Positions 7,601 to 25,028 of a stretch of 64,000 bases of DNA are shown piece by piece. Origin of the DNA: a virus. Position numbers and translations under genes: made by a program. The DNA is taken from the IMG/VR virus record IMGVR_UViG_3300007644_000002, positions 1 to 64,000 of that record. One strand, 5' to 3'. The notes under the pieces are model-generated. The model searched no databases, was not told the DNA's origin, and was given only the letters and a program-made list of their open reading frames with translations. The stretch's first letter is position 1; each line of letters begins with the position of its first letter.

Positions 7601-8652
7601 TCAATTATCTCCTTTAACGCATCAAGTGTATCTAAGTTGATGGGGCTATTATACCCTATTTGATAGGTCTTGGCAAGGAATTCTTTGAAATCACTTTCAG
7701 AAAAGATAGGTTCCCAGAATTCTTCGGTTAGAGTGTCCTTGGTACGAAACTTCTTATCTTCTGCTTCGGTGCCATGACAACGCGAATACCAACCATTACT
7801 TGGTTTGATAACATATCCACCAGCCAAGGCAACCTCGAGCAGACCAGACCACTTCTGTACACCACCTTCCCAAGATACGCCAATCGGAATCTTCGACTGT
7901 TCTTTCACATATCGAGACTTCTCAACCTTGATGATGAAGTTGTAACCAGTGATTTCCATGCCAGTCTTTTCTTGTTGACGGCCAATAATCCAAATGTTAT
8001 CAGCTGAGTAATAGATGCCGGTGCCGCCACTAACCACATCTTTCGGAAACAAACCAATCTCTTTATAAGTGTGATTGATTGCCAACATTGGAATGTTCTT
8101 CATCGCAAGATACGGAGTACACATTCTGAACAGACCCTTCAGTGCCTTCGCACGTGACATGTCCGCAACACCTTTCTCGCTCAAGGCATCGTCCAGTTCT
8201 TTTTTAGACGCAAGGTTACCAATAGAGTCAATGACAATGATTACATCGTCGTCACGGTCTAGTTCTTCAAGCTGACTAATCAAGTCAAACTTCAAGTCTT
8301 CGACGTGTTTGATAGGCGTGTGTAACACACGAGAGGTATCAATACCAAACTGCTCGAAGTATGATTGAGGCGATCCAAACTCTGAATCATAGAACAACAT
8401 AACCGCATCTTTCTTCGCTTTCAGGTAAGCACCTGCCATCAACAATGCGAATGAAGTCTTGAAGTGTTTAGATGGGCCTGCAAGAACAGTTAGACCTGGC
8501 GCCACACCCCCATCAACAGAACCCGATAAAGCGACGTTCACCATTGGAACGTCGGTCGGTATCATATCTTTTGCTGTAAAGAATTTACTCGTACTGAGAA
8601 CTTCAGTCTCTTTAATCTTAGAGTTCTTCTTTAGTTTGTCCATTATACTCAT
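7597..8652 (-). CDS. uvsX: UvsX recombinase (RecA family)
   Basis: A 351-residue RecA-like strand-exchange protein. The P-loop is GPSKHFKTS (59-67), typical of UvsX. Walker B is DVIIVIDSIGNL (about 136-147), and AINHTYKEIG with GGTGIYYSADNIW matches the L2/catalytic region. UvsX coats ssDNA with help from UvsY (33917-34363 here) and drives recombination-dependent replication. Length agrees with T4 UvsX (about 390) minus part of the acidic C terminus. It abuts the UDP-sugar dehydrogenase gene (one-base overlap). Confidence 0.93.
   Translation of the reverse strand: MSIMDKLKKNSKIKETEVLSTSKFFTAKDMIPTDVPMVNVALSGSVDGGVAPGLTVLAGPSKHFKTSFALLMAGAYLKAKKDAVMLFYDSEFGSPQSYFEQFGIDTSRVLHTPIKHVEDLKFDLISQLEELDRDDDVIIVIDSIGNLASKKELDDALSEKGVADMSRAKALKGLFRMCTPYLAMKNIPMLAINHTYKEIGLFPKDVVSGGTGIYYSADNIWIIGRQQEKTGMEITGYNFIIKVEKSRYVKEQSKIPIGVSWEGGVQKWSGLLEVALAGGYVIKPSNGWYSRCHGTEAEDKKFRTKDTLTEEFWEPIFSESDFKEFLAKTYQIGYNSPINLDTLDALKEIIE
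7648..7676 (-). promoter_or_regulatory. Sigma-70-like promoter inside the 3' end of uvsX
   Basis: Minus strand: TTGCCA (7671-7676), 17 bases, TATAAT (7648-7653); one mismatch in the -35. It is placed to boost the 121-residue gene and gene 41. It lies in coding sequence, so it may be coincidental. Confidence 0.5.
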
Positions 8653-9566
8653 TAATCTTTTGCCTCACCAAAGTTAGCGAATGTGATGTTATTAACCTTT
8701 TCTCTTTCATCAAGGTCGTATTGTACACGATAACGAGTGTTTATGTCAAGTACTTTCTCAAGTAAGTCAAAAGATATTTCTTGGTCATCCACCTTATGGG
8801 CAGAGAACTTTAAGAAAGCATTCGTATCTTTAGGAAGACACGCACCACCGAAACCTCGTTTACCATCAAAGCCAGGCACACGAGTGTGGCCCATACCAAC
8901 ACGTTCGTCCAGTCCTGCCGCACGAGTAATGATGTTATAAGAACATCCATATAGATTAACCAAGTCATATAACTGATTAAAGAATGTTACCTTCGTAGCA
9001 AGATAGGAGTTGATTGTATACTTAACGAATGATGCCTCGAATGCGGTCATACGGTGATAGTCATTAGACTCACAACCACTGAAGATATCATAGATTTCAA
9101 TCAGTTCTTGAGTTGCCTGTGGAGAACCACCCATGACGTGGAACTTGGCAGTAACGAAGTCAGCCTTAGCGTTCTTCTCTGTCAGGAACTCAGGATTATA
9201 ACAGAATCGGTCTACTTGACGACGATCCATAGTATTGTATAGTCGCTGGACTACATCCGGAGTGACCGTAGATTTAACTACGACCAATGCGTTAGTGTGA
9301 TAAAGAGTCTTCAGTACAGCATTTTCCACGATAGTAGAGTCTACAGTTCCGTTGTCATTAGATGGAGTCGGAGCACACACAAATACACATTGTGGGTCGA
9401 ACTCTTTTAGATCATCTACCGATGTATTGTACTTCGGGTCAATTAGTTTGAAAGCAACCATCGGATGAGTAAACGCATACTCAACCGCTTGGCCAACAAA
9501 ACCGTGACCTACGATTGCCACACGAAAAGGATTCGCTGGACTTAGTGGAGCATCATTATTTGACAT
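8652..9566 (-). CDS. UDP-glucose/GDP-mannose dehydrogenase family enzyme (short form)
   Basis: A 304-residue NAD-dependent UDP-sugar dehydrogenase. It has the Rossmann motif VAIVGHGFVG (16-25), the VVKST block (97-101), YNPEFLTE (123-130) and the active-site block RGFGGACLPKDT (238-248) with catalytic Cys243. It lacks most of the C-terminal UDP-binding domain of cellular enzymes (390-450 residues). The family oxidises UDP-glucose to UDP-glucuronate with two NAD+. The epimerase gene directly upstream overlaps by one base, so the pair could make UDP-glucuronate and then UDP-galacturonate for the several glycosyltransferases in this genome. Confidence 0.82.
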   Translation of the reverse strand: MSNNDAPLSPANPFRVAIVGHGFVGQAVEYAFTHPMVAFKLIDPKYNTSVDDLKEFDPQCVFVCAPTPSNDNGTVDSTIVENAVLKTLYHTNALVVVKSTVTPDVVQRLYNTMDRRQVDRFCYNPEFLTEKNAKADFVTAKFHVMGGSPQATQELIEIYDIFSGCESNDYHRMTAFEASFVKYTINSYLATKVTFFNQLYDLVNLYGCSYNIITRAAGLDERVGMGHTRVPGFDGKRGFGGACLPKDTNAFLKFSAHKVDDQEISFDLLEKVLDINTRYRVQYDLDEREKVNNITFANFGEAKD

Positions 9567-10507
9567 TATTTAATCCCATTATAAGTTTTGTACCATTCAT
9601 AAAAACGTTCAACACCTTCGGCGATACTTACCTTGGGTTGATATCCTAGAGCCTCTAACTTAGAAGTATTAGACCAAGTCTCTAGAGTATCCGCTGGATG
9701 TTTAGGTGCGAGGTTTTTAATTGCCTCTTTACCTACATTCTTTTCAATTTGCGTGATGAATTCCATAAGTTCGACTTGTTCACCACGACCGATGTTGAAA
9801 ATCTCTCCCGATTCAATCTCAGGATGATTTAAAACGCACTCGATACCATCTAGGATATCTTCCACGAAGGTAAAGTCTCGCTTCATGTTCCCGTAATTAT
9901 ACACGGTAATCTCTTCCCCGTCAAGGATTTTATTCGTAAAATCAAATAAAGCCATATCAGGACGACCCCAAGGGCCATATACAGTGAAGAATCGTAGACC
10001 GACAGTGTTGAGTCCTGACGATTGGAACTGACATTCGTTTGCCCACTTGGTGTAACCATATGCGTTCAACTGTTTACCGGTCTCTTGACCTTCAGTCCAA
10101 GGTACCTGAGAACCCGCGTACACACAAGACGTTGACGCATAAATGATACGAGTGTCGGGAAGGTATTTCTTACACACATCAATAAGATTCTGAGTAGCAT
10201 CAATGTTGTTACGGTGATACTGTTTCTCTTTACCCATTGAGTCACGTACGCCCGCGTGAGCAGCGAGATGGATGATAACATCTGGAGAAAATTCACGCAA
10301 TAACGCTTCAGTCTTGATGTCGTCCGCGAGGTCACAGTTCCAGATAAACAGGTCAAAGTGAGTCATGCGGTCTATTTTGAGTTTCGGGTCATACAGGTGA
10401 CGATTGAAATTATCGATACCTTTTACTTCATACCCATTGTTTTGTAAACGTCCAGCGAGTTGTGAACCTATGAATCCGGCAGCGCCGGTTACAAGTATTT
10501 TCTTCAT
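9566..10507 (-). CDS. NAD-dependent nucleotide-sugar epimerase (extended SDR)
   Basis: A 313-residue extended short-chain dehydrogenase. TGAAGFIG (7-14) binds NAD, LAAHAGVRDS (81-90) and YASTSCVYAG (123-132) hold the substrate pocket, and the catalytic pair is Tyr150/Lys154 (YGYTK). The HAGVRDS block is typical of UDP-glucuronate 4-epimerases and relatives. With the adjacent dehydrogenase this suggests a UDP-Glc to UDP-GlcA to UDP-GalA route. The exact substrate cannot be fixed by eye; UDP-glucose 4-epimerase is the main alternative. Confidence 0.8.
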   Translation of the reverse strand: MKKILVTGAAGFIGSQLAGRLQNNGYEVKGIDNFNRHLYDPKLKIDRMTHFDLFIWNCDLADDIKTEALLREFSPDVIIHLAAHAGVRDSMGKEKQYHRNNIDATQNLIDVCKKYLPDTRIIYASTSCVYAGSQVPWTEGQETGKQLNAYGYTKWANECQFQSSGLNTVGLRFFTVYGPWGRPDMALFDFTNKILDGEEITVYNYGNMKRDFTFVEDILDGIECVLNHPEIESGEIFNIGRGEQVELMEFITQIEKNVGKEAIKNLAPKHPADTLETWSNTSKLEALGYQPKVSIAEGVERFYEWYKTYNGIK

Positions 10508-14012: not shown

Positions 14013-14041
14013 ATTATAGGTTAATATGAACGCTGTGTCAA
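14013..14041 (-). promoter_or_regulatory. Sigma-70 consensus promoter of gene 43
   Basis: Minus strand: TTGACA (14036-14041), 17 bases, TATAAT (14013-14018). Perfect match. It lies in the short gap between the PP-loop gene and gene 43, with the -10 seven bases before the ATG. Confidence 0.8.
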
Positions 14042-14907
14042 GAGAAAAAATCGGAAAGGGTAGCAGTATTGTTCTGTTCGTACCAGTCTCTACAAATGTC
14101 CATCACTCGCTGACGACGTTTGTAATTAATCTCACCATTATCTATTAGTGTTTCAAATAACTTGTCTATCCCGCCACCTAGTTGTAGGTTGATGTGGGGT
14201 TTGACCTTACCAAGAACTTTTTCGATCTCAAACTCTTCTCGAATTATATTCTTCTGTTTTGGTTTGTTGAGTTCTTCCCACGAGAACTTCATAAAGAACT
14301 CGCGTACGCGTGGATCTAGATACGGAGTAACATGAACCTTACCATGTTTCTCTGCTAGATTAGTGTGTTGTTTTAGTCCTGCGCAGTCACCGTCGAGGTA
14401 GGCATTACGGAACTCATTCCAGTTGACTCTCTTCTGGTTGTTTTCTTTACAGTACTTGACATAGTTGCGCTTCTTTTTAAAAGAAGAGTATCTAATCATT
14501 GCTTTCTTAGAACACCCGAAGTATGCGTCAGCACCCCATCCAGTGATACAGTATTCTTCTGTCATGTTTTCATAACAATAGAGGAAGGGAAACACTGCGG
14601 CTTCGTAGTGGGATTTCTTGCGACAACCATGTTTGACTAGTCGGTGCCAGTCTTCAACTAGGTTATCAGTAGGGACAATAATAGTGGTGAACTCCCACCC
14701 CATGATTTCTGCGACTTCCTTTGCCTTCGCGTGGTCATAAGATGGTTGTCCTTCAAGATGGAAACTATACGCGTGTACAGTCTTCCCAGCATCCTGTGCA
14801 GCGATTGCCACACTGATACTGTCAACACCACCAGAAAGAAGTACCGCAACTTTATCATGCGGCACCTTTCCTGCTATGTGGTCAGAGAGAATTTCTCTAA
14901 TCATCAA
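14038..14907 (-). CDS. Asparagine-synthase-like PP-loop ATP pyrophosphatase (no glutaminase domain)
   Basis: A 289-residue enzyme with the N-type PP-loop SGGVDS (25-30), then HAYSFHLEG and GWGADAYFGCSKK, as in the C-terminal synthetase domain of AsnB-type asparagine synthases. The N-terminal glutamine amidotransferase domain with its Cys nucleophile is absent, so it must use free ammonia, another amine donor or a partner protein. The chemistry expected is adenylation of a carboxylate and formation of an amide. It is the last gene of the operon that begins with the C5 methyltransferase and CmoA-like genes, which would supply a carboxylate. Amidation of a sugar acid is the main alternative. Confidence 0.72.
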   Translation of the reverse strand: MMIREILSDHIAGKVPHDKVAVLLSGGVDSISVAIAAQDAGKTVHAYSFHLEGQPSYDHAKAKEVAEIMGWEFTTIIVPTDNLVEDWHRLVKHGCRKKSHYEAAVFPFLYCYENMTEEYCITGWGADAYFGCSKKAMIRYSSFKKKRNYVKYCKENNQKRVNWNEFRNAYLDGDCAGLKQHTNLAEKHGKVHVTPYLDPRVREFFMKFSWEELNKPKQKNIIREEFEIEKVLGKVKPHINLQLGGGIDKLFETLIDNGEINYKRRQRVMDICRDWYEQNNTATLSDFFS

Positions 14908-15768
14908 TTACCCCATATGGCTCTTAATATAACTACCATTTAAAATATCCTTATCCCACTCACTCATAGGTCGTCTAGCAACATCTAGAAGTGTGCCCAT
15001 TCCCATTAAATCAGTACCCTGAACTCGACAATGATTAAACTTAGTATTAGGTTTGCGATAATCGTAGTGTTTCACAACAGGGAGACCATCAAGACTCATC
15101 AATAGGTCGGTACACGTATGACCATTCCATGTCTGGTCTAGATATTGAACAGTCGCATCATTCTTGAATAACATATATTGGATGTACGGCTGGTCTGTTA
15201 TATAATAACTCGCATCTATACCAGAATCCTGAATAACCTCAACATAGTCTTTAAGGTCGAACCACCCTTCCGTACGTGCGCGTATACGCATCTTCTTCGA
15301 ATATATCACAACACCACTGTTTAACGCAATAGGTAATTGCCCATCTATACTAGGAAACTCAACACCCAACTTAGTTCTCACCAAGTTATCCCATTCTATA
15401 AGTTCAATGCGTTTGTGGTCTGGCATAGGATTATCCAGTACCCACAATTCAGGTACCATACCAACATCCATATTCTCATTGAATGCGTCGAATATATTAT
15501 ATTGTAGTTTCTCTGCGGGAAATATATCTAAGTCAGCAAACAGAACTTTATCATATTCATCGAACATAGGGTCGAATATAGGTTTTAGTGCTGAAAAGAA
15601 GTAACCCTTATCACCTACCGAATAGTTAAAATGTTTTGATAAGAAGTCAGGGTTATGTTCAAATATGTAATGAACACCTATACGTCTAGCATACTCCTCC
15701 ATCATGCGACGACCCAACAAGATATCTGCTCTTAAATCACCATCCCAGTACTGGTAAATGACATTCAT
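14908..15768 (-). CDS. Glycosyltransferase, GT8-like fold (copy A)
   Basis: A 286-residue GT-A fold enzyme that starts MNVIYQYWDGD. The metal/sugar-nucleotide motif is DLD in VLFADLDIFP (75-84). Later blocks ALNSGVVIYSK and TDQPYIQYML match the acceptor region of GT8-like enzymes. It is clearly paralogous to the gene at 19466-20239 over its whole length (the openings MNVIYQYWDGD and MNLIYQYFDGD align, as do HCRV and HCRL near the C terminus). The acceptor is unknown: modified DNA base, virion protein or host surface sugar are all possible. It lies in the same operon as the DNA methyltransferase. Confidence 0.75.
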   Translation of the reverse strand: MNVIYQYWDGDLRADILLGRRMMEEYARRIGVHYIFEHNPDFLSKHFNYSVGDKGYFFSALKPIFDPMFDEYDKVLFADLDIFPAEKLQYNIFDAFNENMDVGMVPELWVLDNPMPDHKRIELIEWDNLVRTKLGVEFPSIDGQLPIALNSGVVIYSKKMRIRARTEGWFDLKDYVEVIQDSGIDASYYITDQPYIQYMLFKNDATVQYLDQTWNGHTCTDLLMSLDGLPVVKHYDYRKPNTKFNHCRVQGTDLMGMGTLLDVARRPMSEWDKDILNGSYIKSHMG

Positions 15769-16655
15769 GTGGTAGAATCTTGGTTGATCTGAAACTTGCG
15801 GTATACCCCAGTTTTATTCAGACTAACATGATTGAAGTTAGACACATTACCATGTAATTGGATATTCGCGTGACCAAATTTAAGGAATCTATCGGACGCA
15901 ACACATAGACACTGGAACATGAAAGTTGCGCGACCAGAGTTACTCATAGACCACGACTGTTCTTTGAAGAACTCAAAGAAATCGGTAGTTAAAGCAAAAC
16001 TATCTTGTCCTAGAATTTCGTCTTTCAAGCAGTCTAGAAACTGAATCGCAGTGTCTTCTTCACCAATCTCCGACATGAGAGATGCCCAAGAAGCAAAGTT
16101 TCTTCGGTAGGGGGAATATTCTGAAACGCTATCAAAGAAATCGTCTATAATATCATTACCTCTCTTCACTATACCGGAATAACTTTTCCAATATTCAATG
16201 GCATTTGACATGTTAAGGGAAGGGAGACCCTTACGTTTTACCGCATCGCCCAGAGTAGTTATCTCACTAGCCTTTGCCTTTGGATACTTGCGTTGAATCT
16301 CATCACCGGCAGTACGCTTACGAGCTTCGGTTCCTTTGGTAAAGGTGTCAGGCATAACTCCCAGTATAACCGGAACTAATACCGTTATACCTAACTTTAT
16401 CACAGCGATCAATCTATGCTGGAACTCGGTTATGTTACCATCGGTGTTGAATGTTAAAGCACCACCATCCCACAACCAACCTTCTCTCTCAATATTCCTA
16501 ACAAGATTATTGACTTGATTCTTTTTAATAAGTCTATTATCATAGTTATGGTTGTCAAGAATGTATTGGGCGACTGTTGGAGTTAATAACAGCTGGGTAA
16601 CCCCTTTTGTTTCTGATTTGGGATCAAACCCCAATTTTTCTACTCTTAAAGTCAT
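15765..16655 (-). CDS. ParB/sulfiredoxin-fold-like protein
   Basis: A 296-residue protein. The N-terminal region IKKNQVNNLVRNIEREGWLWDGGALTFNTDGNI followed by FQHRLIAVIKLG has the layout of ParB-like nuclease/sulfiredoxin-fold proteins, in which a G-QHR-A motif forms the nucleotide site; here Gly is replaced by Phe before QHR. The rest is helical and unassigned. Phage proteins with this domain often accompany DNA modification or partition genes. It is sandwiched between the CmoA-like and glycosyltransferase genes (43-base gap before, four-base overlap after). A direct role in choosing DNA sites is speculation. Confidence 0.55.
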   Translation of the reverse strand: MTLRVEKLGFDPKSETKGVTQLLLTPTVAQYILDNHNYDNRLIKKNQVNNLVRNIEREGWLWDGGALTFNTDGNITEFQHRLIAVIKLGITVLVPVILGVMPDTFTKGTEARKRTAGDEIQRKYPKAKASEITTLGDAVKRKGLPSLNMSNAIEYWKSYSGIVKRGNDIIDDFFDSVSEYSPYRRNFASWASLMSEIGEEDTAIQFLDCLKDEILGQDSFALTTDFFEFFKEQSWSMSNSGRATFMFQCLCVASDRFLKFGHANIQLHGNVSNFNHVSLNKTGVYRKFQINQDSTT

Positions 16656-16697: not shown

Positions 16698-17411
16698 TTA
16701 CTTTATCGCAATAGCACCCACAAACAGGTGATTCATCCAGAACGGTTGAATCTTTGTTGAATCAAAACCAACTGAGGTCAGTAGACTAGTCAGGTCATTC
16801 CAAGTCATCGGTTTCAACATAGTTCGGAGAATCTTCTCTTTCTCCATAATATCTTCATAGGTAAAGTGCTGTGCCTTGTACTCATAAAACGTAGAGGTCA
16901 TCATATCTTGGATACGTGAGTTCTCCGCATAAGTCTTCTCGGCAAAGATAAACGCACCACCTTCGTTGAGTCCGTCATAGATGTTCTGTAGTACTTTCTT
17001 TCTCCATAAAGGTTGCATAAACTGTAACGTAAAGATAGATGTCACAAGAGAACAGTTGGCGAAGTTGTGGTGGATGATGTTTTTGTTTTGAAAACAGACG
17101 TGATGACCACCTTCGTTAAGTCTTGTCTGTCGCGCAGTCATATCGTCTTGAAATACCGGAGCATACTCAACACCACAGTAATGTGCGTTAGGGGCAGTAG
17201 TATGATTCTGTTCAACCATTGCTTCGATAGTCTTACCTGTACTACATCCAATGTCAACGACCTTAGTATCGTTCTCTACAAAGTAACGTGATAGGTTTAC
17301 CACGTCATCATGGAGCGTGGAGTAGTGACGAATCGAAGCATCGATGTGATTATCGAAACCTTCTTCGCGGTGACCAAACGTAAAGTCTTTATACTTCTCT
17401 CTATCTTTCAT
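16698..17411 (-). CDS. CmoA-like methyltransferase-fold enzyme (candidate carboxy-SAM synthase)
   Basis: A 237-residue class I SAM-binding protein similar to E. coli CmoA along its length. Motif I is VVDIGCSTG (51-59; CmoA has YDLGCSLG). SIFTLQFMQP (125-134; CmoA VVLNFTLQFLEP), IYDGLNEGGAFIFAEK (144-159) and the ending FVGAIAIK (CmoA FGSLVALK) also match. CmoA makes carboxy-S-adenosyl-methionine from SAM and prephenate. The helix that carries the carboxylate-binding Arg199 in E. coli reads EKEKILRTML here, so that residue is not obviously kept. The gene overlaps the C5 methyltransferase gene by 11 bases. It could act on another small molecule. Confidence 0.7.
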   Translation of the reverse strand: MKDREKYKDFTFGHREEGFDNHIDASIRHYSTLHDDVVNLSRYFVENDTKVVDIGCSTGKTIEAMVEQNHTTAPNAHYCGVEYAPVFQDDMTARQTRLNEGGHHVCFQNKNIIHHNFANCSLVTSIFTLQFMQPLWRKKVLQNIYDGLNEGGAFIFAEKTYAENSRIQDMMTSTFYEYKAQHFTYEDIMEKEKILRTMLKPMTWNDLTSLLTSVGFDSTKIQPFWMNHLFVGAIAIK

Positions 17412-18549
17412 TATACACCTTCAATACGTTCTCATAAACGCTCTCTGCGACTGCTTTCATCATTAGTGGAGGAACCATACGACCAACACGTTCTGCCTTC
17501 TGGTTCCACTTACCCGTGAGTTTAAAATCATCAGGAAGTGACATTATACGCTTTAATTCACCTAGTGTCAACTTTCTTGGTTCACTCCAGTGAAATGCGC
17601 CGGCAGTAGTGTCACCATTACCCATTGCGGTAAGAGTAGGAGCAGGAGCTTCGAGAGATACACGTTTAAGGTTGAAGTGATGTCCTTTAGGATGATAGTC
17701 ACCACCAGTCAAGACCTTATCAGGGAACCTTGGCATTAGAGATCCCGTGTCTTTCCAGTAGGCGGTTCTCTCGAACTTCTCGGTCAGGTATTTGACTTCT
17801 TCGTCATCATACTCCAAACCAAGGAGAGCATCCTTCAGTGGAATTGTGGTGTTAGATGGTGTAGGGAATAAGTGATTCATTGTCAAGAAATGTAGACCAA
17901 CCTTGTCAGCAACATCTTGTCTCACGGCAATGAAGATTACACGTGAACGAGTTTGCGATACACCATAGTAACGAGCATCTAGTACTTCCGACACAACCTC
18001 GTAACCAATATTCTCAAACTCATTTAGAATACGTGCGTAGTATTCCTTAGCCTCACCAATAGTAAGACCTTTAACGTTCTCCGCGATAATAACCTTGGGT
18101 TGAATATCGTTAGCAACACGAAGGAACTCGAAGAACAGGTCTTCAATATTCTCGACAATTTTACCATCAGAGTATTTTTTAGTTTGTCCCCATCCATCAG
18201 AATGTTTGCCATCCGATGAATGGGAAAGTTTCCCTGCGACAGAGAATGCTGAACACGGGGGTGACCCGTCAAGAATGTCCAGTTCACCTTTCTTGAGACC
18301 GACAAGGTCTAGAAAGTCTTGACCAGACAATTCTTTGATATCGTTGGGGACGATAGGAGTGGTAGGATAGTTATCTTTGTAGGTGTTACGTGCTTCTTCG
18401 ACAAACTCATTGATCGCGAGAATATCACCACCGGCAAGACGATAACCAGTGGATGAACCGCCACCACCCGCAAAGGTGGAGACTACGTTAAATTTCTTTT
18501 GAGATGCTGCGTCGTAAACATCTTGTAATGTATAGGGGGTGTAAGTCAT
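17401..18549 (-). CDS. C5-cytosine DNA methyltransferase with Arg in motif X (candidate carboxymethyltransferase)
   Basis: A 382-residue C5 DNA methyltransferase with all main motifs in order: I FAGGGGSS (26-33), IV GSPPCSAFS (95-103, catalytic Cys99), VI AENVKG (156-161), VIII YYGVSQTRSRV (194-204), IX KLTLGELKRIMSLPDDF (326-342), and motif X at 354-361. Motif X reads RVGRMVPP: the nearly invariant Asn of the G-N-x-V motif is Arg357. In engineered M.MpeI, changing this Asn to Lys or Arg allows use of carboxy-SAM. The CmoA-like gene downstream overlaps by 11 bases. Two consensus promoters precede it. Target sequence unknown. No restriction endonuclease is adjacent, so it is more likely protective or hypermodifying than part of an R-M pair. 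Confidence 0.85.
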   Translation of the reverse strand: MTYTPYTLQDVYDAASQKKFNVVSTFAGGGGSSTGYRLAGGDILAINEFVEEARNTYKDNYPTTPIVPNDIKELSGQDFLDLVGLKKGELDILDGSPPCSAFSVAGKLSHSSDGKHSDGWGQTKKYSDGKIVENIEDLFFEFLRVANDIQPKVIIAENVKGLTIGEAKEYYARILNEFENIGYEVVSEVLDARYYGVSQTRSRVIFIAVRQDVADKVGLHFLTMNHLFPTPSNTTIPLKDALLGLEYDDEEVKYLTEKFERTAYWKDTGSLMPRFPDKVLTGGDYHPKGHHFNLKRVSLEAPAPTLTAMGNGDTTAGAFHWSEPRKLTLGELKRIMSLPDDFKLTGKWNQKAERVGRMVPPLMMKAVAESVYENVLKVYNER

Positions 18550-18643: not shown

Positions 18644-18672
18644 ATTATACATGACTCTGAAGGGTTTGTCAA
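18644..18672 (-). promoter_or_regulatory. Sigma-70 consensus promoter P2 of the methyltransferase operon
   Basis: Minus strand: TTGACA (18667-18672), 17 bases, TATAAT (18644-18649). A second perfect match 68 bases upstream of P1, so this operon has tandem consensus promoters, the only such pair in the window. It overlaps the stop codon of the gene upstream. Confidence 0.85.
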
Positions 18673-19469
18673 TCAATTATTGCGAAAAACTTGTGTCGTG
18701 TCCAAGGTTCATTAATATGAGTCTCATTATAACCGTGATGGTCTTGAGTAACTAACAACCTCTTAGAGATGACTTGAGTGGTAGGTGTAAGAATACCTTT
18801 ACCATTCTTGTCAAGCATATTGAACGGTTCGCCAATGTCGCGACAAAAGGTCAAAGTATCACACCCATGCCATGGATGTATAGCAGTATCAGATAACCCC
18901 AGATAGTTTACTTCAGGTAGTGCCAGATGAGACGTGGTGTACGTTCTAAACAATCTCTGTAGGGTACAGTACGGGCCGCAGTTGATTGGAAAATTATTAT
19001 TAACAAGAGTATGATTCGCCCAATGAGCAAACCGTCTATCTAGGGAATACATCCCCATAAACAAACCTATGTTGGCGTAAAGCATACTGTCCGACGCCTT
19101 CGCGAGAGATTTAAACACCTCGTATCGCTCAGGAATCAGATAGGTATCATGTTCTATAACCCAAAACTTCTCACCGGACTCTGCTTGTTGTCTCATGAGT
19201 TCCCAATGAGAACACATTCCTGCCTTCTCTGTAGGAGAGTGATCGTCCTTCGCGTTACCAGAATGTAGGTCGACTCCCATGAGACTAGCCTTCCAGTTGT
19301 AACGGTCTACATGTTCTTGAAACGTATCAGACTCAGGAGTGATAGCATCAAACACTTCTATACCATCAATAAACCCATCGTCAATAGCACATTGAAAAGA
19401 CTTCCGAGAAATCTCAGCATACTCTTCTGACCTTTCATTACCCTTGATTACTATCTGTCTTACTTTCAA
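18669..19469 (-). CDS. Glycosyltransferase, GT25-like
   Basis: A 266-residue protein whose central block GMCSHWELMRQQ...EKFWVIEHDTYL (84-111) follows the GT25/LPS-type pattern: a conserved Ser-His-hydrophobic helix followed by a hydrophobic strand ending in acidic E-x-D (Glu106, Asp108). The first strand MKVRQIVIKGNERSEEY also suits a GT-A fold. Family members add galactose or glucose to lipopolysaccharide or collagen-like acceptors. It overlaps the GT8-like gene upstream by four bases, so the two sugar transferases are made together. Confidence 0.6.
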   Translation of the reverse strand: MKVRQIVIKGNERSEEYAEISRKSFQCAIDDGFIDGIEVFDAITPESDTFQEHVDRYNWKASLMGVDLHSGNAKDDHSPTEKAGMCSHWELMRQQAESGEKFWVIEHDTYLIPERYEVFKSLAKASDSMLYANIGLFMGMYSLDRRFAHWANHTLVNNNFPINCGPYCTLQRLFRTYTTSHLALPEVNYLGLSDTAIHPWHGCDTLTFCRDIGEPFNMLDKNGKGILTPTTQVISKRLLVTQDHHGYNETHINEPWTRHKFFAIID

Positions 19470-20239
19470 GAAATTCTCCTTTTGATAAACTCTTCCTGAT
19501 TACCACTTCTTAACCTACAATGAACAAACTTAGTAGTTGGGGTTCTCATATCATTCCAGATTTCAGACACATTATTAAAAAGCTTCACGCTGTCTGTCCA
19601 TATATGACCATTCCAGTCCTGACTTAACAATTGTATGTCAGCATTATTCTTATGTAACATATACTGAAGATATGGTTGAGCGGTCAGAAAATATTCATCA
19701 GGCATTCTATTTTCAAAGTCATTTAACCTAGGTGCCTTATCAATCATCCACTCTACGTATTCAGGTAGGTCAAACCAGTTCCTCGCTTTCTCTCTGATTT
19801 GTTTTGAATACAACACGACTCCGCTGTTAAATGATACATCAACAACAGCAACTTCTTCCTTCCATTCTTTTAGTTTCTTTAGTTTAGTCGGAGGAATTCT
19901 ATCATGGAAGGTTTCTTCGACGACTCCGACTTCACCCGTGAGTTCATCAAATATATTATCAGTCAGTCCCTCGATAGGAAGAACATCAACGTCCGCGTAA
20001 AGAATTTTGTCGTATTGGTCAAACCGAGGGTCTAGTAAGGGTTTCAGTGAACCGAAGTACACGTCATTATTTTGGATACGATTACCAGTAGTGTATTGGT
20101 AATGTGTTTGTAAGAAATCGGTATTATGCTCGAACATGTATTCAACACCGACAGTCTTAGCATATTCTGTCATAAGATGAACGCCCGCTTCTACTTCAGG
20201 GGTGATATCACCATCGAAATATTGATATATAAGATTCAT
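19466..20239 (-). CDS. Glycosyltransferase, GT8-like fold (copy B)
   Basis: A 257-residue paralogue of the enzyme at 14908-15768. The opening MNLIYQYFDGD, the block VEYMFEHNTDFLQTHYQYT (32-50), the DxD motif in KILYADVDVLP (78-88), SFNSGVVLYSK and the ending HCRLRSG align one to one with copy A. A terminator lies just upstream (20258-20287) and no promoter is obvious between it and the ATG, so expression may depend on read-through. Donor and acceptor unknown; the two copies may add successive sugars. Confidence 0.75.
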   Translation of the reverse strand: MNLIYQYFDGDITPEVEAGVHLMTEYAKTVGVEYMFEHNTDFLQTHYQYTTGNRIQNNDVYFGSLKPLLDPRFDQYDKILYADVDVLPIEGLTDNIFDELTGEVGVVEETFHDRIPPTKLKKLKEWKEEVAVVDVSFNSGVVLYSKQIREKARNWFDLPEYVEWMIDKAPRLNDFENRMPDEYFLTAQPYLQYMLHKNNADIQLLSQDWNGHIWTDSVKLFNNVSEIWNDMRTPTTKFVHCRLRSGNQEEFIKRRIS

Positions 20240-23939: not shown

Positions 23940-25028
23940 TTAATCAAATAAGTTAAATAAATCTAAAGATTCCCACGGCCAGTAGGTGTAACCAAAATGT
24001 CCCCACCTCGCGGTCTCTTTTAAGTTTATGGAAAAGAGATCGAAACGGTCAATGATTCCTTTGGGTGTCAGGTCAACAGTATCCAGAACCAATTTTACGA
24101 GGTCTTCGCGCACTTGTCCGTCCGCATAGATGTATAAACTAGTGGGTTCTTTCACACCAATAGCATAACTCAACTGAACGGTACAGTTACTCACACCAAA
24201 AGAATGAACAATATTCTTTGCGATGTAACGTGCCATATATGCGCCAGAACGGTCAACCTTGGTACAGTCTTTACCACTAAACGCACCACCACCATGTGGA
24301 CAGTACCCACCATAGGTGTCTACAATAATCTTTCGACCAGTAACACCAGCATCACCATCAGGGCCGCCAATGATAAACTGACCTGTGGGATTAATAAGAT
24401 ATTCAGTTTGGTTATCGACCCAATCACCGAGACATTTTTTGATAAGTTCTTTTATATTAGTTCGTACAATCTCTATATCTTGCTTTGCGGTATGTTGCGC
24501 ACTACAAACGACTTTAGACACTCGAAGAGGTTTACCTGTTTCAGCATAATCGACAGAGACCTGAGACTTGATGTCGGGGCCATACTTTGAATACGCACTA
24601 ACACTTTCTATTATCTTTTTACTGAGACTAATTGCGAGAGGCATATAGGTATCGGTCTCTGTACACGCATAACCAAACATTAGTCCTTGGTCACCCGCAC
24701 CGAAGTCATCAGTACCTAGAGCGATGTCAGCAGATTGACCGTGTAGTTCATTGTAAACCTTTAAGTTTCTCCAATGGAAACCATCTTGTTCGTAACCAAT
24801 TTCATACACAACGTCTCGAACAATCTGTTCAATACGTTTCTTGTCAAACTTATCGCTCTTATATTCTCCAGCAAGGACTACCATGTTAGTAGTTACAAGG
24901 GTTTCGACCGCAGCGCGATGGGAGGGGTTTTTATCTATCAGGTAGGTTGCTACAGCATCAGATATGATGTCAGCAATTTTATCGGGGTGGCCACTACTAA
25001 CGCTTTCACTAGTAAAAGTGTAACTCAT
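23940..25028 (-). CDS. metK: S-adenosylmethionine synthetase (MetK)
   Basis: A 362-residue SAM synthetase, near the length of E. coli MetK (384). It has SGHPDKIADIISDA (12-25), GAGDQGLMFGYA with its ATP/metal residues, NPTGQFIIGGPDGDAGVTGRK and GGGAFSGKDCTKVDRSGAYM, all intact. It makes SAM from methionine and ATP. It starts 24 bases after the 3' end of tRNA-Thr on the same strand. Several SAM-using genes are near: the C5 methyltransferase and CmoA-like pair and the methyltransferase at 25331-25978. A phage-borne full-length MetK suggests a heavy SAM demand during infection. Confidence 0.93.
   Translation of the reverse strand: MSYTFTSESVSSGHPDKIADIISDAVATYLIDKNPSHRAAVETLVTTNMVVLAGEYKSDKFDKKRIEQIVRDVVYEIGYEQDGFHWRNLKVYNELHGQSADIALGTDDFGAGDQGLMFGYACTETDTYMPLAISLSKKIIESVSAYSKYGPDIKSQVSVDYAETGKPLRVSKVVCSAQHTAKQDIEIVRTNIKELIKKCLGDWVDNQTEYLINPTGQFIIGGPDGDAGVTGRKIIVDTYGGYCPHGGGAFSGKDCTKVDRSGAYMARYIAKNIVHSFGVSNCTVQLSYAIGVKEPTSLYIYADGQVREDLVKLVLDTVDLTPKGIIDRFDLFSINLKETARWGHFGYTYWPWESLDLFNLFD

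Follow-up and report, generated by a model that had tools for sequence, protein, structure and literature searches.

Does this phage locus encode a natural route for placing a carboxymethyl group on cytosine, and what would the final base be? The window, the whole stretch of DNA that was analysed, comprises bases 1-64000 of an 82,714-base IMG/VR virus record, and its neighbour genes are T4-like (DNA polymerase gp43, a UvsX-like recombinase and a clamp loader). The nearest named record found was Phage C48C1 of the Kyanoviridae, which aligns with 14% of the 20 kb compared, at ~75% identity. A preliminary description of the locus had picked out two overlapping open reading frames and had proposed that they encode a cofactor maker and a transferase adapted to its product. 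We found both frames where they had been placed, and the cassette around them very probably represents a CmoA-CmoX-CmoY DNA modification system of a T4-like, Kyanoviridae-related phage. The two genes, and the two codons on which the argument turns, are as follows.

17401-18549, minus strand: CmoX, predicted DNA cytosine C5-carboxymethyltransferase, 382 aa, 64% identity to S-B43 CmoX
18253-18255, minus strand: codon of the catalytic Cys99 (SPPC), aligning with SpCmoX Cys98
17479-17481, minus strand: codon of Arg357 in motif X, aligning with SpCmoX Arg350 and M.HhaI Asn304
16698-17411, minus strand: CmoA, predicted carboxy-SAM synthase, 237 aa, 52% identity to active SpCmoA, TIGR00740 1.1e-29

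The cmoX gene overlaps its neighbour cmoA by 11 bases (17401-17411). CmoX matches the C5 cytosine methyltransferase family PF00145 at 1.5e-53 and, among solved structures, PDB 8yf3 (E 3.4e-154, 516 bits, residues 4-377). The SPPC motif is present as S96-P97-P98-C99 and motif X reads G356-R357-M-V-P-P, with R357 at the position of Asn in M.HhaI; the family match and the M.HhaI alignment bear out the earlier assignment of a C5 methyltransferase with Cys99 and with Arg357 in place of the motif X Asn. In the crystal of SpCmoX from Synechococcus phage S-B43 (PDB 8YF3; Yang et al., Nat Commun 2025, PMC12783734), motif X Arg350 contacts the carboxylate of carboxy-SAM. Arg357 of the window protein matches this R350, and the Cx-SAM contacts named for SpCmoX are all kept as F26, E48, F49, D70, C99 and R357, the first four corresponding to SpCmoX F25, E47, F48 and D69. 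All but two of the 209 aligned CmoX-like proteins (207) carry the motif X Arg; one exception is a truncated ORF and the other has Leu, in a Methylophilales phage. We therefore take the Arg not to be a chance feature of CmoX. SpCmoX and the window enzyme differ in their target-recognition regions, and for this reason GC as the modification site is a guess, one towards which we lean slightly.

Among the CmoX-like genes, the Leu case (L005:4010-5227, Methylophilales phage Melnitz) has CPPFS; CmoA was not seen in its stretch, and an annotated RimK-like ATP-grasp gene lies nearby. The CmoX-like gene of Erwinia phage Y3 (L006:20410-22539) is interrupted at the catalytic Cys (SPP/CFTENT...VVHN/CKGFS) by a segment that looks intein-like by eye. 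Tandem cmoX pairs occur in L124 and L141. An MT-A70 adenine methyltransferase gene stands directly upstream of cmoX at L163:3228-3764 and in seven other loci, and CmoY was not found in these eight loci. Near a gp43-CmoY-CmoX arrangement, the ORF at L132:130-1326 is amidinotransferase-like by eye and has no Pfam match.

An ordinary SAM-dependent 5mC methyltransferase beside a tRNA-type CmoA for cmo5U in tRNA would also have intact C5 methyltransferase motifs, as CmoX does, and the cellular role of CmoA is tRNA modification. We retrieved viral contigs using three types of methyltransferase query and recorded which residue occupies motif X and whether CmoA occurs within the retrieved stretch; loci fetched by CmoA or CmoY queries were excluded, against circularity. 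The CmoX queries gave 159 genes, all with Arg and 145 with CmoA, and most of the CmoA-less genes sit near contig ends. When at least 2 kb was present on both sides, CmoA was found in 60/61 loci, and it was found in 0/79 Met-type and 0/87 Asn-type methyltransferase genes; the contigs are not independent observations, and these counts describe an association and not a rate. It had been suggested at the outset that motif X Arg common in methyltransferases without a CmoA neighbour would undo the proposal, and the outcome was the opposite.

The only Arg case in the Met-type set (L337) has both CmoA and CmoY. Here, two CmoX-like methyltransferases are fused in a 727-aa ORF (L337:5195-7378) in which GRSVPP appears twice, and the enzyme looks like an independent origin of motif X Arg. 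Moraxella phage Mcat8 likewise has motif X Arg and an overlapping, divergent CmoA-like gene. At L391:7980-11020, CmoA and CmoY stand beside a C5 methyltransferase (ERC-SGIPP) without motif X Arg. This may be another solution that does without Arg, or the true CmoX may lie off a contig that may be incomplete. We considered a second, Arg-free carboxymethyltransferase family and set it aside, as there is a single contig and a search found no further relatives.

Against the ordinary methyltransferase stand the motif X Arg with its near-perfect link to CmoA, the finding that wild-type SpCmoX accepts only Cx-SAM (PMC12783734), a third cassette gene that is CmoY and not CmoB, and a window CmoA that shares 52% identity with SpCmoA but 25% with E. 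coli CmoA. We therefore regard that alternative as extremely improbable and keep the reading of CmoX as a carboxymethyltransferase.

That reading requires a source of carboxy-SAM. In S-B43, CmoA converts SAM and prephenate to carboxy-SAM, and CmoX uses only carboxy-SAM and carboxymethylates C5 of cytosine at GC sites to give 5cxmdC (PMC12783734). The window CmoA is homologous to active SpCmoA over its full length, and it matches the E. coli CmoA structures 4gek/4iwn on sequence. Its best curated match is TIGR00740, which agrees with the CmoA-like call made earlier, at 103.8 bits versus a cut-off of 193.3. Since active SpCmoA misses this cut-off too (115.6 versus 193.3 bits), the low score is no argument against CmoA activity; because it falls below the cut-off just as SpCmoA does, we place the window CmoA with the phage CmoA subfamily and not with bacterial-type CmoA.

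The preliminary description had also observed that the carboxylate-binding Arg of CmoA is not obviously present, and had treated this as the main weakness of the proposal. In E. coli CmoA, Arg199 salt-bridges the carboxylate (PMC3663124). The observation holds: E. coli Arg199 aligns with Glu192 in the window CmoA and Glu188 in SpCmoA, and Glu192/Arg196 replace E. coli Arg199/Glu203. The conclusion drawn from it does not, because Glu occupies this position in the proven S-B43 CmoA too; on this comparison we see no defect in the window CmoA. Across 176 aligned CmoA sequences, E. coli positions 199/203 are Glu/Arg in 155 and Arg/Glu in 6, which suggests that the Arg of most aligned phage CmoAs has moved by one helical turn.

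The same Glu192 and the score below the NCBI cut-off could be taken to mean that the CmoA-like protein is an ordinary methyltransferase that makes no carboxy-SAM, with CmoX either inactive or relying on host CmoA, and E. coli CmoA is indeed able to supply CmoX (PMC12783734). However, the same Glu is found in SpCmoA, whose activity exceeds that of E. coli CmoA about tenfold (kcat 2.33 per s versus 0.23 per s; PMC12783734), and the swap of the two residues in 155 sequences against 6 fits a relocated Arg. We give this explanation almost no credence. The proposed pairing of a cofactor maker with an adapted transferase is instead strengthened by a close homologue of each having been purified and assayed (PMC12783734), and the window CmoA and CmoX in all likelihood act like those S-B43 homologues.

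The gene pair had been deduced correctly; the rest of the cassette (14038-16655), including the ligase CmoY, had been missed. The remaining features of the cassette are listed here.

14038-14904, minus strand: CmoY, predicted ATP-dependent amide ligase of asparagine-synthetase type, 288 aa, PF00733 6e-17
14908-15768, minus strand: GTa, predicted GT-A-fold glycosyltransferase, 286 aa, from an AlphaFold model and Foldseek
15765-16655, minus strand: ParL, phage protein of phrog_5931 (3.1e-19), possibly ParB-like, 296 aa
14007-18668, no strand assigned: CmoX-CmoA-ParL-GTa-CmoY insert, flanked by GTc and gp43

CmoY lies 1.8 kb beyond cmoA and starts at ATG 14904, the listed ORF opening at TTG 14907. 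It has PF00733 without a GATase match and a PP-loop SGGVDS at residues 25-30, in agreement with SGGxDS. Its similarity to SpCmoY (46% identity; tblastn 1e-67 and blastp 7e-81, from databases of different sizes) reaches roughly the level at which the published family was clustered, E 1e-56. PMC12783734 describes S-B43 CmoY as an asparagine-synthetase-like ligase that couples glycine to 5-carboxymethylcytosine, and the glycine adduct makes up ~10% of cytosines in S-B43 phage DNA (PMC12783734). The earlier suggestion that the phage DNA carries 5-carboxymethylcytosine or a derivative is thus supported by the homologues; because the cassette also encodes CmoY, an amide of 5cxmC is probably the final base, ahead of 5cxmC itself. 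CmoX homologues without a detected CmoY neighbour account for 20/55 well-flanked loci.

Which amine CmoY joins is a finer point. From the 46% identity, glycine is the amine we favour, with some confidence. The end product could instead be something other than the glycine amide, if CmoY couples a different amine or if GTa attaches a sugar in addition. CmoY has an insertion relative to SpCmoY as well as this limited identity, the insert contains a GT-A-fold glycosyltransferase gene flanked by ParL and cmoY, UDP-sugar genes are present at 8652-10507, and close relatives differ in what they carry between cmoA and gp43. On the other hand, the window CmoY keeps every one of the 34 positions whose conservation among 117 CmoYs is 90% or higher. 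C48C1 also has glycosyltransferases and UDP-sugar genes, although cmoX is missing from the part of it that was examined, and these genes may for that reason serve something else. Serine hydroxymethyltransferase (SHMT) genes beside cmoX in 5/200 loci (L069:8811-9965, L056, L059, L067 and L072) fit glycine, which SHMT could supply for CmoY. On balance we consider a product other than the glycine amide unlikely, and glycine remains the preferred amine.

The AlphaFold model of GTa (pLDDT 78.5) matched LARGE1 (4.9e-08) and XXYLT1 (1.7e-07) in Foldseek, and GTa has a DxD motif at D79-D81 and a 45% identical paralogue at 19466-20239. The UDP-sugar genes, for UDP-glucose dehydrogenase and a nucleotide-sugar epimerase, are conserved in the lineage. 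That GTa puts a sugar onto the amide of 5cxmC, giving a glycosylated, amide-linked cytosine, we find highly doubtful, and no description of such a base was found. A Pfam scan of ParL gave no match, including to PF02195, and its best fold matches, to Noc/ParB, were not significant (E 0.05); we therefore rejected it as a PF02195 ParBc protein, a family often near CmoX, and a ParB-like fold is weakly suggested.

In close relatives, the CmoX-CmoA core is constant and the slot between cmoA and gp43 is variable. It holds ParL with GTa and CmoY, a 330-aa protein with CmoY, a 365-aa protein, a Methyltransf_24 protein with ParL, ParL alone, or nothing. This pattern fits a handle that receives different additions, the partners being putative. 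The Methyltransf_24 protein after cmoA at L043:6982-7785 could, by analogy with CmoM in tRNA, cap the carboxylate.

GTc and gp43 are adjacent in Phage C48C1, ~30 bp apart, and the CmoX-CmoA-ParL-GTa-CmoY gene set is absent from that junction. Because five genes (an insert of ~4.7 kb) separate GTc and gp43 in the window, the cassette was either inserted in one lineage or lost from the other. GTc itself (18669-19469) was rejected as a member of the system, since in C48C1 it occupies the corresponding position with no cmoX beside it. A further gene lies ~5.4 kb from cmoX.

23940-25028, minus strand: MetK, phage SAM synthetase, TIGR01034 9.1e-120, over the cut-off

MetK is present in only some relatives; we rejected it as a defining partner and keep it as a possible source of SAM for the cassette.

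In the mechanism that we propose, the phage CmoA would combine SAM with host prephenate to form carboxy-SAM. CmoX would form the usual covalent intermediate between Cys99 and C6 of cytosine and transfer a carboxymethyl, not a methyl, group to C5, because Arg357 would hold the carboxylate of the cofactor; the product would be 5-carboxymethylcytosine, probably at GC sites. CmoY would then use ATP to adenylate the carboxylate of 5cxmC and join an amine, most likely glycine, to give a 5-carboxymethylcytosine amide. We presume that the modified bases shield phage DNA from host nucleases. For the S-B43 homologues, 5cxmC has been shown to protect from HhaI (PMC12783734).

Taken together, a reading of the sequence alone recovered a biochemical system that was published only in December 2025. 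The co-occurrence of Arg and CmoA provides independent, convergent support for motif X Arg as a mark of carboxy-SAM use, and such enzymes can therefore be called from sequence. Given the variable slot beside the constant CmoX-CmoA core, some relatives may attach different groups to the carboxymethyl handle.

Known systems resemble this cassette to different degrees. Bacterial CmoA, which acts in tRNA cmo5U formation, shares with the window CmoA its best curated family, TIGR00740, but E. coli CmoA is only 25% identical and has Arg199 where the window protein has Glu, and no CmoB partner was seen near the window gene. In engineered M.MpeI N374K (cited in PMC12783734), a positive residue in place of the motif X Asn likewise admits carboxy-SAM; that enzyme is engineered and CG-preferring and makes 5cxmC as an unnatural base, whereas the window enzyme is natural and belongs to a separate phage family. 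Synechococcus phages S-CRM01 and RN05-S have adjoining CmoA and CmoX, motif X Arg and 62-65% CmoX identity, but the stretches examined showed no CmoY. The closest likeness is to S-B43, which shares all three enzymes, the motif X Arg, SPPC, the named cofactor contacts, a CmoA with Glu/Arg for Arg/Glu, and clustering of the genes on one strand. The differences are that the order is CmoA-CmoY-CmoX in S-B43 and CmoX-CmoA-ParL-GTa-CmoY in the window, that the window adds a glycosyltransferase and the phrog_5931 protein inside the cassette, and that its enzymes (64%, 52% and 46% identical for CmoX, CmoA and CmoY) are known from sequence alone. A literature search on 5cxmC found no paper beyond PMC12783734; the available main text of that paper does not contain the motif X Arg control, the Arg/Glu swap, the convergent L337 enzyme, the L391 exception or the partner slot. 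The system is already known from another phage and the window phage is a further member of it, in which only details are new, namely the GT-A glycosyltransferase inside the cassette and the variable partner slot.
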